Source: Ignisphaera sp.
GTDB lineage: Archaea > Thermoproteota > Thermoprotei_A > Sulfolobales > Ignisphaeraceae
Length of the DNA: 64,000 bases
Direction: 5' to 3'
Assembly: GCA_038831005.1 (NCBI GenBank)
Contig: JAWBKZ010000003.1
Coordinates: forward strand, 186,001 to 250,000
Positions within the stretch are counted from its first letter, which is position 1. Every line of letters starts with the position of its first letter. This document shows, one piece after another, positions 10,020 through 18,536 of this stretch. Position numbers and translations under genes: made by a program. The notes beneath the pieces were generated by a model that saw only the letters and a program-made list of their open reading frames with translations, was not told the DNA's origin and did not search any database.

Positions 10020-10781
10020 TTATTCTGATCTTGGTGCCACGTAGAGTTTCATTATGGAGCCTGAGATAAGATCTAAATCGAATTCACAAGGCATATCCCT
10101 ACCTAACTTAATAGTGACGATTTCCGCTATCCTAGATATCGTTGATAATATCGATAAATACTCCATAGAATAAGCATTGATAAATTCTTCGATATCTTGT
10201 AGAGATTGATAATCTATTAACGTTCCTGCAGGTATTGTTAACGCTATCTCTGCTTCACCAAGCTCCGACGTAGATATAAGTGATATACCTTCTTTATAGA
10301 CCTTTATCTTTAGAATTTCACCTACATCCTCTAGAATACTCAAAGATGATGCCAATGTAATTCCTGTAGTCTTTGCCTGGACATCGAATTCCAGTGATAG
10401 TTCCGGTATTTCTTCATAACTTCCTGAGAGAAGAGGTAATGTAAAGATCCTCTCTGTATTTCCTCTAGATACGAGACCTATAGTGAGTTTTAGACCGTCA
10501 CTTGTAATCATTAGTTTATCGCCTCTTCCAGCTCTACGTAAAACCTTCGATACAGGTTCTAATGGTATTATTAGAGTGGACTCTTCATTTACGTTATATT
10601 CTTCAAATGCTGAAGAAGGTATAGATAGATCTACAAGCACAACATGACTAGGATCCATAGCTTTAAGACGTGCACCTTCAGAAGGATGGAACCTTATTCC
10701 GACCGACTCCACGAATTGTGAAAGCTCTCTTAATATATATCGCCACAGCCTTGCATCAAGGAATACAGTTCTCAAATTCAT
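10020..10781 (-). CDS. pcn: DNA polymerase sliding clamp (PCNA), first copy
   Basis: 253 residues from the ATG at 10781, which has SD-like GGTGAGG four bases upstream; an open extension to 10856 is rejected. DARLWRYILREL opens the first clamp domain, MDPSHVVLVDLSIPSSAF is the typical first-domain strand, and SGSIMKLYVAPRSE is the C-terminal strand with its acidic end. Crenarchaea use three different PCNA chains as a heterotrimer; a second chain is encoded 480 bp upstream (11262-12023). Which PCNA class each represents cannot be told without an alignment. Confidence 0.95.
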   Translation of the reverse strand: MNLRTVFLDARLWRYILRELSQFVESVGIRFHPSEGARLKAMDPSHVVLVDLSIPSSAFEEYNVNEESTLIIPLEPVSKVLRRAGRGDKLMITSDGLKLTIGLVSRGNTERIFTLPLLSGSYEEIPELSLEFDVQAKTTGITLASSLSILEDVGEILKIKVYKEGISLISTSELGEAEIALTIPAGTLIDYQSLQDIEEFINAYSMEYLSILSTISRIAEIVTIKLGRDMPCEFDLDLISGSIMKLYVAPRSE

Positions 10782-10856
10782 TAACCTCACCCACACTCTA
10801 TAGTAGATCTGCACAGTACTAATACTATTTATAGTATTATGGTTATAAATTACCAT

Positions 10857-11210
10857 CTAGATTTCAGTACAATTAACAGATTTAGTAGAGCTAAGCATGG
10901 TCTGTTCAACATTATCTGGATTCTTCAATAAAATGTTACACCTATATAGACTACAGTTTTGAATGTCTTCGCATACACATTTAACACTAATAAGATCTAC
11001 TCCGCTAATCAGCCTCACCATATCGTCTCTAGTGATGATGCCTAAACATTCAATTACTTTATCTCGAAGCATTCTTATCTCTATAACTTTCCTATCTTCA
11101 TCTACATTCATAATAACGTTACTTCCTTCACTAATATCCAGAATGAGTCTTGCATACGATGGTATAGTTATTCTTCCTTTGCCATCAATCTTAACTACTT
11201 CAATATACAT
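10857..11210 (-). CDS. AbrB/SpoVT-type transcriptional regulator
   Basis: 117 residues. The N-terminus is a swapped-hairpin AbrB DNA-binding domain: EVVKIDGKGRITIPSYAR followed by LDISEGSNVIM (residues 3-35). The C-terminal half has five cysteines (two in VKCVCED, three in NCSLYRCNI region), which may bind metal or form disulfides. It lies between two PCNA genes on the same strand. The arrangement suggests control of or co-expression with the clamp genes, but that is inference. Confidence 0.85.
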   Translation of the reverse strand: MYIEVVKIDGKGRITIPSYARLILDISEGSNVIMNVDEDRKVIEIRMLRDKVIECLGIITRDDMVRLISGVDLISVKCVCEDIQNCSLYRCNILLKNPDNVEQTMLSSTKSVNCTEI

Positions 11211-11261
11211 GTCTATATCCTCAGATCCTACAACTTAGTTACCTACTTACCTGTCATTAAT

Positions 11262-12023
11262 TCAACCTCTTGGGGCTATCCATGCAGTAATCTTTCCTCC
11301 ACCAGCAACATTTAATGAAATCTTCAGAGGCTTCTCAGGACCAAAAGCTATTGTACAGTCATCAGCTAAATCCAGTAACTTTGACAATGATTTAAGATGC
11401 TCTACACCATACTTTACTATGACACTCCCTATAGATGATTCCAAATACGTTAATGGTTGAAACTGCCTTAATACTGTAGTGTATTCCGCTAGCTCACCGT
11501 GTCCCGACACCTTTAAAGCGTTCATATCTGACGAATACACAAACATTATCTCATCTCCAACTAACACTACATCCTTTATGACCTCCACCAGTTCTGATGT
11601 GGGTAACGATGCCTGGACTTCGTAAGATATATTAATTTCGCCTAATCTTTCGAAACCTATTTCTGATAGCGATACTGCATGCTCTCTCTCAATACCCGAC
11701 CTTACATTTAGTATCTTAATCTTGAGTTCTCTAGAACCTTCAAGATACTCAAATACAACTCTATCCCGTTTTGATGCTCTTCTAAATGCTTTAATATATT
11801 CATCTCTATCAGCTACTATACTAACATTACCTGTAACAGTATATTCCTCAAAAGCTGTTGAAGGAAGCTCGAAAACAACCATTGTGACTTTATCTGGACT
11901 TAATGCCTCTATAATAAAACCCTCTAAACTAAAGAACATAGGCACTTGATCAACTACTCCTTTAAGCGCTACCATAATCTTTTTAAATACTACTCCACTT
12001 GGATAAACTGCTTTCACACTCAT
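11262..12023 (-). CDS. pcn: DNA polymerase sliding clamp (PCNA), second copy
   Basis: 253 residues, same length as the other clamp but only distantly similar. VVFELPSTAFEEYTV, KIKILNVRSGIEREH and GGGKITAWIAPRG are typical clamp strands; the C-terminal APRG matches the end of crenarchaeal PCNA chains. It is probably another subunit of the heterotrimeric clamp. Transcription likely starts near 12028 from TTTAAAG at about 12052-12058 (minus strand), immediately beside a perfect palindrome at 12060-12074. Confidence 0.95.
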   Translation of the reverse strand: MSVKAVYPSGVVFKKIMVALKGVVDQVPMFFSLEGFIIEALSPDKVTMVVFELPSTAFEEYTVTGNVSIVADRDEYIKAFRRASKRDRVVFEYLEGSRELKIKILNVRSGIEREHAVSLSEIGFERLGEINISYEVQASLPTSELVEVIKDVVLVGDEIMFVYSSDMNALKVSGHGELAEYTTVLRQFQPLTYLESSIGSVIVKYGVEHLKSLSKLLDLADDCTIAFGPEKPLKISLNVAGGGKITAWIAPRG

Positions 12024-12109: not shown

Positions 12110-12484
12110 ATGACTAAAAAAGTTAAAGTATATAAAACTATCGGTGACTACGTGGCATTAGTAATGTTTGCTGAAGATGTTGTTGAAATCCTCAATATAT
12201 TGCAGAGAAGCTTGAATAAAGGTGAGGAAGATGTTGAAGATGCCATACGTATGATTAATTATTTTGATACATTCTATAACATCATGAAGAAGAAATTTAA
12301 GGAATACCTAACACCTAAAAAGAATGTAAGTGATATTATCAGAAAGAGGGTTCTTATAGACAAAATAAAATTGATTAAGATAGATGAAACAAGAATGGTT
12401 GAGGTTATTTTAGATAGATCTATATCGCTAGATGAAGTTTTAGAAATACTTGTTAGTAATAATATAGAAGTAGAAAAAGCTTAA
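12110..12484 (+). CDS. Uncharacterised protein
   Basis: 124 residues, not recognised. It is mostly helical and charged: a first helix pair (about 20-75, with VVEILNILQRSL and MINYFDTFYNIMKKKF) and a C-terminal alpha-beta part with RMVEVILDRSISLDEVLEIL. No signal peptide, membrane segment or cysteine. The gene is divergent from PCNA and its 3' end overlaps the convergent rpo13 gene by 4 bp. Confidence 0.65.
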   Translation: MTKKVKVYKTIGDYVALVMFAEDVVEILNILQRSLNKGEEDVEDAIRMINYFDTFYNIMKKKFKEYLTPKKNVSDIIRKRVLIDKIKLIKIDETRMVEVILDRSISLDEVLEILVSNNIEVEKA

Positions 12485-12744
12485 GATTTTCTTTTACGCG
12501 ATCTCTTTGATACCTTTTTTGTTGTCTCTTGCAATGATTTGGATGATGGAAACGAATCTAGGGCTTCATTAATAGTTATTCTATTCTGTAAAAGTCCATT
12601 CCATATTTCAGCTCTAGTTAGAAATAACTCGATCTCTGATACACTTATGTTTCCTATATCGATCTCCTCCTCTCCTAGGTAGTCTGCCTCTTCTCTTCTA
12701 CTTTCTTCTTCGATTACCTCACTTGTAACCTCCTCATCAAACAT
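12481..12744 (-). CDS. rpo13: RNA polymerase subunit Rpo13
   Basis: 87 residues from the ATG at 12744 (SD-like GGTGG ten bases upstream); a longer frame to 12807 is rejected. The central segment ISVSEIELFLTRAEIW followed by NGLLQNRITINEAL matches the helix-turn-helix core of Sulfolobus Rpo13 (there IQDIELLMKNTEIW then a similar NGKISVDEA). As in Rpo13, an acidic N-terminus (about 1-35, many Glu) and a Lys/Arg-rich tail (KKVSKRSRKRKS) surround it. Rpo13 is a crenarchaeal subunit near the downstream DNA. The match is from memory, but the pattern is specific. Confidence 0.85.
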   Translation of the reverse strand: MFDEEVTSEVIEEESRREEADYLGEEEIDIGNISVSEIELFLTRAEIWNGLLQNRITINEALDSFPSSKSLQETTKKVSKRSRKRKS

Positions 12745-12855
12745 GATTTCCACCAATTCACAAATTGCTCTAAATACGTGATTATAACGCTTGATAACAT
12801 AAGACAAAATAGCAAACTTTTATATCTTTCGTTCTTAGCACACCTTAACGACTTT

Positions 12856-13723: not shown

Positions 13724-16609
13724 ATGATGGAAGTTCTGGGAGAAGATGGTATTAAACGATTGTTAAATATTGTGGGATTCGATTCTCCAACTCTTGTTCA
13801 AAAAATTGCGATACCGAGGATACTAGGTCACGATCTAGATGTAATAATAGTTGCTCCTACAGGTAGTGGTAAGACTGAAGCTGCTTTTTTGCCCCTTATG
13901 TATAAGTTAACATTAAAAGGTATGAATGATAGTAGTGGTATTAAAGTACTTTACATAACTCCTTTGAGAGCTCTAAATAGAGATATATATCGTAGAATTG
14001 AACGGATTGCATCGATTTTTAAGCTAAATGTAGGTATATGGCACGGTGATACTTCTCCAAGTGCTAGAAAAAGAGTTCTAAAGAATCCACCTAGTATATT
14101 GATTACTACTCCAGAAAGTCTCCAAATATTGTTAATTAAGGATAGAATAAGAGATAACTTCCGCAGACTGTATGCCGTTGTAGTAGACGAAGCTCAAGAT
14201 ATTTTACCGAACAAACGAGGAGCAGAACTTGCTGTAGCTCTTGAGAGACTCGATGAAATTGTCGGTAGACATGTGAGAAGATTGCTCATTTCTTCTCCAT
14301 TAGGGAATGTGGATTCCATTGCTCATTACTTTTTCTCGGGCAGAAGATACGATATAGTGTACGTTAAAGGTGCTAAGAAATATGATATAGAGGTGATGGT
14401 TTCAGATAATTCATACAGTGATGGTGTATTTGATACTGATAATGTTGTATCATTCTTATGTAACAAAATCTTAGGTACTGAAGTCCCTGGACAAGTGCTT
14501 TTGTTTGCTAACACACGTGTCATGGCAGAAGAACTTGGTTATAGCCTATCTAAGTGTTTAGGTAAGAATGATATAGCCTTGCATCATAGTTCCTTATCTA
14601 GAGATATAAGAGAATTGGTTGAAGGGATGTTCAAAAGAGGAAACCTACATGTCGTCGTTGCTACCTCTAGTCTCGAATTAGGTATAGATGTAGGTGGTGT
14701 AGATATGGTTATACAGTACATGTCTCCTAGACAAGCATTAAAACTTATTCAAAGAGTTGGTAGATCTGGACATCGAGAACAAGCTATATCTAGAGGAATT
14801 ATAGTGGTTCCACCACTTGTGACAGAGCTAATGGAATCCTTAATTATATCTCGTAGAGCCATGAGAGGTTTCCTAGAACGTTTAAACTATCACTTGGCAC
14901 CACTTGACGTACTTGCTCATCAAATAGTAGGTATAATTCTAGAGAGAAGACATGCTAATATAGAGGAGATATGGAGAATAATTACAAAAGCTATGCCGTT
15001 CAACTCTATGACGTTATCACAGTTTGAAGCTGTAATAGATTTCCTCAACACAATTGGTATGATCAAGTGTAAAAGTAGAGAATGTGCATACACTAAGAGG
15101 GGACTTATATATTATGTATCAACAAACATGATTCCCGACACTAATCATTACGAAGCTAAATCTCTCCTAGATAGAAAAACTATGGGATTACTTGATGAAG
15201 AATTTGCATTAACGTGTAATGAAGATGATGTTATTGTTTTGGCGGGTAGGTTATGGAAGATAGTCAGAGTTGATACCGAGAAGAGAGAGGTGGTAGTTTT
15301 ACCCATAGAATCATCTGATAAAGAGGTTCTACCTAAATGGATTGGCGAAACTATACCGGTTCATAGAAATGTTGCACGTGAAGTATGTGCCTTTGCCAGA
15401 AGATTCTGTACCTGTGATACCGATATTTGTGTAGATAAGTTAATGGATGAGTATAAAGCCAATGAGGTCATAAGAGAATTCTTTAAAAAGAATAGAGAAA
15501 AGATTTGCCGAATATACCCTAGGGATGACGCTATTATTGTAGAATTATTTCGTGTACAAAAAGAGAATACGTCATTACTTGCCTTCTATACATGCCTAGG
15601 TACGAAAGCCTCAGAAGCTTTTTCCCTATTGATAGAGTATCTAATAAAATATGAATTAGGTGTATCAGTAGCATATAAATCGCATCAGTTAGGTACGGTT
15701 CTCCTCATCAATAGTCTACTTGGCAAGGACGACTTAATCAAGATTTTTAAGAGGCTTCATCAAATAGCTAGAGCCCCTGATGAAGTAACAGAAATTATTA
15801 AGAACGTAGTTAAGAGCAGTTCTTTGTTTAAATGGAGGCTAGTAAATGTCGCTAAGAAACTAGGCATCATAGGTAAGGAAGTTGAAGCAACTAACGTGAA
15901 AAGAATTATTGAAGGTTTATCTAACATTGATATTGTTGTTTCAGAGGCTTTAAGAGAACTTTATGTAGAGAAAATCGATATAGATGAGCTTTTAAGATTT
16001 CTTCAAAATTTTGTTAATGGTAAAATCAAAGTCAAAATAATAGTCTCTTCAAAGGCATCACCATTTATTGAGGAAATTACTGCATTAGGCGTATTCAGAA
16101 CCTTAGTCAAATATTCAATACTTCCTCGCGAAACTATAATCGAAATCGTCAAGAGAAGGCTCCTTGAAACCGAAATCAAATTGTTTTGCACCTCTTGCTA
16201 CAATACATGGAATATAAACTTGAAAGAGAAGCTAAATTCGTGTAATTCGTTATTCTCTTGCTCTATAGTATGTCCCTACTGTGGATCCATGGCTATAACA
16301 TTAGTTAATCAAGCTGATGAAACACGCTTACTCAAGAGAGTGTTTGAAAAACTTAAGAGAAGTAGCCACGAAAATATTAAGTTTCTACAAATCGAAAAAG
16401 AAGCTTTAGATAGACATCGGAAACTAGTAGATTTCATTATGAACCATGGAGTGGCAGGAATTATAGCTCTTCGAGGTATTGGTATAGGTACTGAGACCGC
16501 AAAACGTATTATAGCTAAGTCTTCAGATCTTAATACACTAATAATGAATATCATAGATCAGGAAAAGACATTCTTAAGGACTGCAAGATATTGGAGAAAT
16601 ACAGAATAA
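13724..16609 (+). CDS. Lhr-like superfamily 2 helicase with C-terminal zinc finger and HhH
   Basis: 961 residues. Motif I is APTGSGKT (44-51), motif II is VVDEAQDI (DEAQ, where Lhr proteins usually have DEVH-like boxes), and VGRSGHRE near 345 is motif VI. IWHGDTSPSARKR and TTPESLQILL are typical Lhr features, and a long Lhr-core-like region follows the helicase domains. About residues 822-857 carry a Cys4-type finger (CTSC and CPYC), and residues about 905-935 read as a helix-hairpin-helix (GIIALRGIGIGTETAKRII). The family unwinds or anneals nucleic acids in repair; this tail could give structure-specific DNA binding. Two Met codons (13724, 13727) could start. Confidence 0.85.
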   Translation: MMEVLGEDGIKRLLNIVGFDSPTLVQKIAIPRILGHDLDVIIVAPTGSGKTEAAFLPLMYKLTLKGMNDSSGIKVLYITPLRALNRDIYRRIERIASIFKLNVGIWHGDTSPSARKRVLKNPPSILITTPESLQILLIKDRIRDNFRRLYAVVVDEAQDILPNKRGAELAVALERLDEIVGRHVRRLLISSPLGNVDSIAHYFFSGRRYDIVYVKGAKKYDIEVMVSDNSYSDGVFDTDNVVSFLCNKILGTEVPGQVLLFANTRVMAEELGYSLSKCLGKNDIALHHSSLSRDIRELVEGMFKRGNLHVVVATSSLELGIDVGGVDMVIQYMSPRQALKLIQRVGRSGHREQAISRGIIVVPPLVTELMESLIISRRAMRGFLERLNYHLAPLDVLAHQIVGIILERRHANIEEIWRIITKAMPFNSMTLSQFEAVIDFLNTIGMIKCKSRECAYTKRGLIYYVSTNMIPDTNHYEAKSLLDRKTMGLLDEEFALTCNEDDVIVLAGRLWKIVRVDTEKREVVVLPIESSDKEVLPKWIGETIPVHRNVAREVCAFARRFCTCDTDICVDKLMDEYKANEVIREFFKKNREKICRIYPRDDAIIVELFRVQKENTSLLAFYTCLGTKASEAFSLLIEYLIKYELGVSVAYKSHQLGTVLLINSLLGKDDLIKIFKRLHQIARAPDEVTEIIKNVVKSSSLFKWRLVNVAKKLGIIGKEVEATNVKRIIEGLSNIDIVVSEALRELYVEKIDIDELLRFLQNFVNGKIKVKIIVSSKASPFIEEITALGVFRTLVKYSILPRETIIEIVKRRLLETEIKLFCTSCYNTWNINLKEKLNSCNSLFSCSIVCPYCGSMAITLVNQADETRLLKRVFEKLKRSSHENIKFLQIEKEALDRHRKLVDFIMNHGVAGIIALRGIGIGTETAKRIIAKSSDLNTLIMNIIDQEKTFLRTARYWRNTE

Positions 16610-16663: not shown

Positions 16664-16676
16664 ACTTTATATACTG
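16664..16676 (+). promoter_or_regulatory. TATA box of the Ced-like cluster
   Basis: actttatatactg centres about 27 bases before the ATG at 16697. Transcription would start at or next to that ATG, giving a leaderless mRNA. This is why I prefer the ATG at 16697 over the TTG at 16685. Confidence 0.5.
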
Positions 16677-16696
16677 AATCAGTATTGTGGGAGACA

Positions 16697-16969
16697 ATGG
16701 ATATAGTGGAACTAATTAGAGACCTAATAGGAAAAATAGTTGTAATTTCGTGGATGTTATTCCTATTAACGTGGATAATTGGATGGGCTATCAAGGGATC
16801 CCCCATACCTTCAGGCAAAATTAGAAGAGTAGGACAAGGTTTAATAGAAGACGCTATTTGGGGCGCCTTTTGGGTTGCTATTGGGACCTCTATCTTTTGG
16901 TTAATATCGTACATATCTTCAGCCATCGGAAATGTACTGCCAAAAGCCCCTGTACCTGAACTACCTTAA
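16697..16969 (+). CDS. Two-helix membrane protein, CedA1/VirB2-like pilin candidate
   Basis: 90 residues with two hydrophobic helices (about 13-32 and 52-75) joined by a short cationic loop KGSPIPSGKIRRVGQG (33-48) and a Pro-rich tail. This layout is that of VirB2-type conjugative pilins and of CedA1, the pilin-like part of the crenarchaeal DNA-import system. The loop pattern PIP-x-G-K-x-x-x-x-G, then LI-x-DA, recurs at the N-terminus of the next gene product (YALPIPITGLKRWGPRLINDA), which suggests a shared ancestry or interface. The next gene follows after 17 bp. I see no ATPase (CedB/HerA-like) in the window. The Ced call is inference. Confidence 0.5.
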   Translation: MDIVELIRDLIGKIVVISWMLFLLTWIIGWAIKGSPIPSGKIRRVGQGLIEDAIWGAFWVAIGTSIFWLISYISSAIGNVLPKAPVPELP

Positions 16970-16986
16970 CATCAATAGGTGTTATA

Positions 16987-18369
16987 ATGCATCTACTTCT
17001 AACATCATTTTATTTATCAATTCTTACATTCTATCTAGGTGTTCTCATTTATGCTTTACCTATACCCATAACTGGGCTCAAGAGATGGGGCCCTAGATTG
17101 ATAAATGATGCATTCTTTGTAGCCATTCTTTCTACAACCATAGATAGTATCATAAGTTTTGCTGACTACTTAAGACATACGCTAGGAGGTAATTGGACAT
17201 ATTATATACATACAGTTAGAGGTCTGATAATGTATAGAACAACCCTCATAACTGTTTTAAGTATATTGAAAGACTATATATTGAAAGTTATTCCGGGTCT
17301 ATCTAGACTTCTGTCGATAGGTATAAACATCATTACGGCATCACTATATGCGTTACTGCTCATGTACTTCCTCGCCTTACTGGTTTATCATAATATTGGG
17401 GTACTTTCATCGTTAGGTATAACATTAATGGCTATACCATTCAGAATAGCTAGAAGTGCAGGTGCATTCCTTCTATCATTTACACTTGTGCTTTATTTAG
17501 CTTTACCCTTGTATCCGAATTTCGTATCAATTCTGTCTACACCGGTTTCACATTCATTTCTAGATGTCACCATAATATACGGTAATGTTGTTACTGATCT
17601 AGGCTATAGAGTTCTAGAAGGGTATGTGGGTCTTGAAGTAGAGGATAAATATGTGGGTCCAGCAAAACTTGCACCTAATGGACATATGCTTCTAATAGTC
17701 AGTAAAAAGTACTTAGAAAAACCATCAACATTATATTTTGATGCATCTAGTCATAGATTCTATACGAACTTAACAAACGTCATTCTATCAAATCTATGTT
17801 TAGATCGGTCTACATTAAGTATGTGCAGAATAGATGTATCAATTAGAGGATTACTCTACTATAGAAAAGGCATGACTATACATGCGGCGCCTCAACCACA
17901 TTTCCTAGAGATATCAGAAATAGAAAGTAACTCCATCTCTTTTAAGGTTGAGCTTCCATCACATGGAAGTCTCTATCTCTCTATAGTAGATCAATACAAA
18001 ATAGATCTAGTATCTATAAACAATACAATAAGTATAGATGATTTAACAAAATACAAAGCATATAGTTGGATATGGTACAATGTTCCAGGAAATACATACG
18101 TAATTCCACTATCGCCAGGGATCCACACCATATATTTAAGGTTTGAGGTACGTTCTTTAGAGGAACTAGAACCATCTACAGAACATTTGTATCCTATCAA
18201 TATATATGAACTACATCCAAATACCGTAGGCGATATTATGGATATACTTACTTACACCTCATATGTAGAAATCATTTCATCTCTATTATATATCTCGTTA
18301 CTCATGTCAGCATCTTATGGTTTATCGAAACTATTAGGTGGTGTTACAAAACTCAGGTTGATACCATGA
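16987..18369 (+). CDS. Large membrane protein, CedA-like channel candidate
   Basis: 460 residues. The N-terminus (about 4-62) has two helices around ALPIPITGLKRWG, echoing the small protein encoded before it. Three or four further helices follow (about 85-180), then a long beta-rich domain (about 185-420) that is probably outside the cell, and a final membrane helix (about 426-450). Sulfolobus CedA is shorter (about 260 residues), so the extracytoplasmic domain would be an addition. The stop codon overlaps the ATG of a third small membrane protein. Membrane topology is seen; a role in DNA import is inferred from the pairing. Confidence 0.5.
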   Translation: MHLLLTSFYLSILTFYLGVLIYALPIPITGLKRWGPRLINDAFFVAILSTTIDSIISFADYLRHTLGGNWTYYIHTVRGLIMYRTTLITVLSILKDYILKVIPGLSRLLSIGINIITASLYALLLMYFLALLVYHNIGVLSSLGITLMAIPFRIARSAGAFLLSFTLVLYLALPLYPNFVSILSTPVSHSFLDVTIIYGNVVTDLGYRVLEGYVGLEVEDKYVGPAKLAPNGHMLLIVSKKYLEKPSTLYFDASSHRFYTNLTNVILSNLCLDRSTLSMCRIDVSIRGLLYYRKGMTIHAAPQPHFLEISEIESNSISFKVELPSHGSLYLSIVDQYKIDLVSINNTISIDDLTKYKAYSWIWYNVPGNTYVIPLSPGIHTIYLRFEVRSLEELEPSTEHLYPINIYELHPNTVGDIMDILTYTSYVEIISSLLYISLLMSASYGLSKLLGGVTKLRLIP

Positions 18370-18536
18370 TATTAAACGAACTTCGCAACAAAATAATTCT
18401 ATTTAACTTAGTAATGGTGATTTTATTCGCTATAATTATGATTAAACATAACGAAGGTTTCAATCTAGTTAATCTTCTTCTACTATTAGGAGTATCAATA
18501 TCATCTTACGTACTTTTAGAAAAATATAGAAGATGA
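18366..18536 (+). CDS. Small two-helix membrane protein, third gene of the Ced-like cluster
   Basis: 56 residues, overlapping the previous stop as ATGA, so translation is probably coupled. Two hydrophobic segments (about 10-26 and 33-49) are separated by KHNEG; the ends are charged (MILNELRNK and LEKYRR). Sulfolobales Ced clusters include two small two-helix proteins (CedA1 and CedA2); this one could be the second, but it is too short for a firm call. Confidence 0.5.
   Translation: MILNELRNKIILFNLVMVILFAIIMIKHNEGFNLVNLLLLLGVSISSYVLLEKYRR

Follow-up and report, generated by a model that had tools for sequence, protein, structure and literature searches.

Ced is a machine by which thermophilic archaea acquire DNA from neighboring cells. 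The genetics of Ced, CedD and UpsX have been studied in Sulfolobaceae (PMC11868833, PMC3892339), and the filament structure of the CedA1 pilin has been solved for A. pernix (PMC9905601). A relation between CedA1 and CedA has already been published (PMC9905601), while the second CedA paralog, CedE, is known from Saccharolobus only and is not expected elsewhere (PMC11868833). Loss of UpsX leaves Ups pili and aggregation intact and lowers DNA transfer, and part of the UpsX protein moves to the membrane after UV treatment (PMC3892339). Acidianus keeps upsX and upsE, and is missing upsF, upsA and upsB (PMC11868833). Outside Sulfolobaceae, Ups pilus genes have been stated to be absent from Crenarchaea (PMC11868833).

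The window that we analyzed is a stretch of 64,000 nucleotides from an Ignisphaera sp. genome of 1.70 Mb in 9 contigs (G000:C3:186001-250000). The initial annotation had placed a candidate Ced-type cluster of three overlapping or closely spaced membrane-protein genes at positions 16697-18536 of this window. All three open reading frames (ORFs) are present there on the + strand, and the Ced assignment is upheld by strong similarity to Ced families and by CedB and CedD homologs in the same genome. The cluster adds a member to Ced, and the surrounding system is a new variant in which a split CedB lies beside a relative of UpsX.

Genes of the cluster and their neighbors

The first gene, cedA1 (16697-16969, +), encodes a 90-aa protein with two hydrophobic helices and an SPIPSGKIRR loop between them. 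In a phmmer search it matches 8dfu, the CedA1 pilin of A. pernix (E 5.7e-26; 40 of 80 residues identical, 50%), and it passes the equivalog cut-off of the NCBIfam CedA1 model (NF041797; 107.5 bits, cut-off 100). Judged by homology, what had been described as a two-helix, VirB2-like protein with a cationic loop is a CedA1 pilin. CedA1 is detected in 159 of the 197 genomes of the class, which makes this an ordinary kind of cluster, and the gene order cedA1-cedA-small gene-(cedB) is common across the class.

The cedA ORF (16987-18369, +) begins 18 bases past the cedA1 ORF, the ATG of the third gene (18366-18536, +) and the stop of cedA share a 4-base overlap, and a TATA box recognized by sequence inspection (TTTATATA; 16666-16673, +) precedes the cedA1 ATG by 31 bases; the three genes are therefore likely carried on one transcript that is separate from that of the upstream helicase gene. 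Most of 13 Ignisphaera-family loci have a TATA-like box at -30 to -34, and cedA1 probably has its own promoter and little or no leader. A TTG at 16685 was set aside as the cedA1 start in favor of the best-placed ATG at 16697. The UV-response hexamer ANTTTC is absent upstream of cedA1, and damage induction is therefore unsupported at this gene. A Pfam search with the three cluster proteins returned noise only.

The third gene encodes a 56-aa protein with two helices, as originally described. It fits CedA2 in position and topology, and is too short for a homology test. An ORF of 38-90 aa with two transmembrane (TM) helices comes after cedA, at a distance of -15 to +40 bases, in 47 of 77 loci, versus 2 of 322 control genes. 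This small gene is missing in Acidilobaceae and Aeropyrum, the latter in agreement with the published absence of CedA2 from A. pernix.

The DNA helicase gene that the cluster had been noted to follow (13724-16609, +) is of the Lhr type (Pfam DEAD, Helicase_C, WH_Lhr and DEAD_assoc) and is a conserved neighbor: in each of the 13 Ignisphaera-family loci it lies immediately 5′ of cedA1, as it does in several loci of Pyrodictiaceae. This helicase may be connected with DNA import, and we do not claim it as a Ced component. Elsewhere in the window, translations of positions 10020-12023 contain two nearby sliding-clamp (PCNA-like) genes with an AbrB-like ORF between them, and the ORF at 12481-12807 (-) has a weak match to RNA polymerase subunit Rpo13 (E 0.002, under the Pfam cut-off).

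CedA and its beta domains

The 460-aa product of the second gene, a CedA/VirB6-like protein and putative membrane pore, matches the NCBIfam CedA model NF041796 over residues 2-190 (E 7e-39), with a score of 133.9 bits that is below the equivalog cut-off of 330 bits. The CedA and CedA1 profile searches suggested by the initial annotation thus gave matches, CedA1 above and CedA below its cut-off. The CedA model has 259 positions, equal in length to the short form of Sulfolobaceae, and the sub-cut-off score weakens equivalence to Sulfolobus CedA, not homology.

At its N terminus, CedA has two helices linked by LPIPITGLKRWG. This CedA1-like part, with its PIPxxGLKR loop (16987-17166, +), is matched by the NCBIfam CedA1 model (CedA residues 6-57, E 8e-6), and the CedA model likewise matches the 90-aa pilin (E 5e-8). 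A profile built from 28 CedA sequences also matches 8dfu (E 3e-8). Because the two NCBIfam models match each other's proteins, we regard the similarity as real homology, and the proposed repetition of the PIP motif of the small protein in the large one holds.

In an AlphaFold2 model of CedA built with 28 sequences (mean pLDDT 87), helices fall within residues 2-184, beta strands occupy residues 194-388 (17566-18150, +) and a last helix spans residues 414-449. The beta region sits between TM6 and TM7, folds as two tandem beta-sandwich domains, contains Cys271 and Cys280, and is predicted from loop charges to be outside the cell. Its best Foldseek matches, to the sortase-assembled tandem Ig-like pilin BcpA, are weak (E 1.5e-3 to 3.2e-3), and some CedA relatives match CarboxypepD_reg under the cut-off.

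To survey named genomes, CedA1 was used as the query; CedA as the query gave no matches there, because its sequence is too divergent. Among the 77 CedA genes adjoining CedA1, 75 encode proteins of at least 400 aa, one from Aeropyrum included. The other two are short, and their nearest CedA1 places both in the Ignisphaera family. Short CedA proteins of 281 and 326 aa that lack the beta domains are seen in Ignisphaera-family loci L053/L187 and L188. Two CedA genes were read in family f5, which we take as Sulfolobaceae because UpsX passes the NCBI cut-off in f5 only; they encode 261 aa (L066) and 288 aa, the start of the latter possibly being overlong. CedA with beta domains is therefore the usual form outside Sulfolobaceae, and the domains appear to have been lost at least twice. 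Of the initial proposal that a long extracytoplasmic beta domain was an addition, the region itself stands, but the domains are not peculiar to this cluster. No mention of CedA beta domains was found in the Ced literature searched (PMC9905601, PMC11868833). The Sulfolobus CedA, which serves as the experimental model, is thus a shortened form.

A split CedB beside a relative of UpsX

The genome encodes five HerA-like ATPases. The gene for CedD lies 25 kb upstream of the cluster (C3:176152-177648) and matches NF053655 with E 5e-70 and 236.6 bits, not reaching the cut-off of 600. CedB, which the initial annotation had suggested looking for elsewhere in the genome, is found on another contig as two genes. 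Its ATPase gene, at about 140.5-141.6 kb of C4, has CedB as the best family (E 2e-42), at a score under the NCBI cut-off of 700 bits. The two ORFs encode the N-terminal domain (191 aa) and the ATPase (about 376 aa), and an alignment of the N-terminal gene to single-ORF CedB has a profile probability of 97.6% over 167 columns. Both the Ced similarity and the CedB/HerA-like partner whose absence had been named as counterevidence are thus in place. A search of the window genome for CedE gave no convincing further CedA-like gene.

CedB is split in all 16 Ignisphaera-family loci read (16 genomes) and in all four f10 loci read. Every genome of the window genus has the split gene as its best match to CedB. 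In a tree of the ATPase part, CedB proteins of f1, f8, f10 and f5 form one clade (100/99), apart from CedB proteins whose genes follow cedA.

The split CedB is preceded by a gene for an 813-aa protein (C4:137507-139948) without Pfam or NCBIfam matches; its counterparts before CedB are 760-814 aa long. A profile of this family finds an f5 protein annotated by NCBIfam as UpsX (570.9 bits, cut-off 550). In profile-profile comparisons with 22 Sulfolobaceae UpsX proteins, the Ignisphaera-family protein reaches 98.3% over 508 columns and the f8 version 98.4% over 644 columns, while ten control comparisons give 0-0.3%. On these profile matches, the protein before the split CedB is a full-length UpsX relative. 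A structure model covers its C-terminal part only (mean pLDDT 75), and we did not use the Foldseek matches of that part (DUF3823 and Ig-like folds, all at E 5e-4 or weaker and with TM-scores close to 0.2). A profile search of the PDB with UpsX-like proteins returned keratin matches only, which we took as noise. The occurrence of the CedB split throughout the Ignisphaera family, with both genes after a full-length UpsX relative, is new.

Among the f8, f1 and f10 genomes in which both places were tabulated, UpsX adjoins CedB in 31 of 31 (f8, 18/18; f1, 9/9; f10, 4/4). Nothing lies between the two genes in f8, and only the N-terminal CedB gene separates UpsX from the ATPase in f1 and f10. All 14 complete f8 loci read have the order pilin-E-F-UpsX-CedB, and in f10 pilin-E-F-UpsX is followed by the split CedB. 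The F proteins of these f8 and f10 operons compare with Sulfolobaceae UpsF at 97.0% and 93.6%. Their E proteins compare with UpsE at 100% but resemble other archaeal pilus ATPases about equally well, and the description "Ups-like" hence depends chiefly on UpsX and on the order of the genes. Ups-like genes and CedB therefore share one operon outside Sulfolobaceae, which alters the published view of Ups absence from other Crenarchaea (PMC11868833). In f5, UpsX and CedB are adjacent in none of 27 genomes. They are 14-26 kb apart in nine genomes of two genera, a linkage that we set aside as proof, as it holds in those two genera only. In families f3, f4 and f9, where cedB follows cedA, no UpsX relative was found within the reach of this profile. 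Pilin, E and F genes of the Ups type are absent from the UpsX-CedB locus itself in the window genus.

Several loci depart from these arrangements. In L118 and L119 (f8, genus g33) and in L124 (G121, a genus of its own), a UpsX-like gene is near a VirB4-like ATPase gene of ~600-635 aa and type IV pilus genes; CedA1 is not detectable in the g33 genomes. In L168, L171, L172, L174, L176 and L181, the E-type ATPase ORF that precedes UpsX-CedB has a length of 826-887 aa rather than about 440 aa, perhaps through fusion.

Because UpsX promotes DNA transfer and can be lost without effect on pili or aggregation, Acidianus keeps upsX in a reduced gene set, and the window genus keeps UpsX-CedB without pilin, E and F genes at the locus, we conclude that UpsX follows the motor rather than the pilus. 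UpsX had no assigned function, and its fixed place beside CedB in three families predicts a contact between the two proteins, with UpsX as a putative partner of the CedB motor. We put at about even odds a broader proposal: that UpsX is a cytoplasmic partner of CedB and not a pilus protein; that Ups and Ced are one machine, once encoded in a single pilin-E-F-UpsX-CedB operon that Sulfolobaceae split up; and that the window family retains no more than the UpsX-CedB core, with a two-polypeptide motor working under a pore crowned by Ig-like domains.

Proposed mechanism and relation to known systems

The best explanation of the cluster, to which we assign a probability of roughly 0.87, is that it encodes the membrane components of a Ced apparatus for DNA exchange, one half of the machine, with the ATPases encoded elsewhere and UpsX proposed to dock CedB. 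Such an apparatus would be related, in domesticated form, to type IV secretion systems. CedA1 subunits, pulled from the membrane with lipids, would polymerize into a mating pilus, with the cationic loop lining its lumen. CedA would act as a VirB6-like pore and pilus base, its CedA1-like N terminus seating the first ring of pilins, and its two outward beta-sandwich domains may stabilize the base of the pilus or attach to the S-layer or to a partner cell. The 56-aa protein may be a small accessory subunit in the role of CedA2. DNA would be pulled in by CedD and by a two-polypeptide CedB (N-terminal domain plus ATPase), with the UpsX-like protein docking this motor at the membrane. The direction, import rather than export, is suggested by the genetics of Sulfolobaceae.

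The most serious competitor, which we nonetheless consider unlikely, is that the CedA1 pilus and CedA serve DNA export, two-way transfer or mere adhesion here. CedA1 and CedE matter for export too in Saccharolobus (PMC11868833), DNA import by Ced has been assayed in Sulfolobaceae alone, and the extracytoplasmic beta domains of CedA resemble Ig-like modules of pilins; against this, the genome retains both CedB and CedD, whose Saccharolobus counterparts act on import only (PMC11868833). Less probable still is that the UpsX-CedB operon stands outside Ced, the split ATPase driving an Ups-like type IV pilus and resembling CedB through a shared ATPase fold. Pilin, E and F genes do accompany UpsX-CedB in f8 and f10, and the ATPase scores under the NCBI CedB cut-off. 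However, such a pilus is already served by the E ATPase, and in each genome of the window genus no gene matches CedB better than the split one. UpsX and CedB also remain neighbors in that genus although pilin, E and F have gone from the locus, and Sulfolobaceae CedB, with its proven Ced function, nests in the same clade as split CedB.

Two further explanations concern the data themselves. An assembly or sequencing error could mimic a CedB split, as the two frames in the window genome overlap by 35-47 bases, such as a single indel could give. We rejected this very improbable reading on the recurrence of the split across families, in the Ignisphaera-family and f10 loci described above, where the two genes often have a gap of up to 46 bases and their own start codons. 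Finally, short hydrophobic proteins easily give false matches, and the cluster could consist of unrelated small membrane proteins that are Ced-like by composition; the chance of this is negligible, being refuted by the matches to 8dfu and to NCBIfam models, by the extent of identity with the A. pernix pilin, and by conserved synteny and the conserved PIP loop.

Taken as encoding a Ced apparatus, the window genome shares with Sulfolobaceae Ced the CedA1 and CedA genes, a small two-TM gene directly after cedA, and homologs of CedB and CedD. It differs from that system in the length of CedA, with its two extra beta domains (460 aa, versus 261 aa in L066), and in a CedB encoded by two genes in an operon with a UpsX relative; no CedE was found. 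Its pilin is 50% identical over 80 residues to that of the A. pernix CedA1 pilus (8dfu; PMC9905601), and a CedA of Aeropyrum is also long (455 aa), but Aeropyrum has a single-ORF cedB immediately behind cedA, with no small gene separating the two. The Ted system of Thermoproteales (TedA, TedB and TedC) follows the same VirB2/VirB6/VirB4-like logic, whereas TedC has no sequence similarity to CedA1 and has a cleaved signal peptide (PMC9905601). With the Sulfolobaceae Ups operon (upsX-E-F-A-B) the window genome shares a UpsX homolog, to which f8 and f10 add homologs of the pilin, E and F. In f1, f8 and f10 this operon ends in CedB, whereas in Sulfolobaceae cedB is separate from it, at 14-26 kb in two genera and far away in others.
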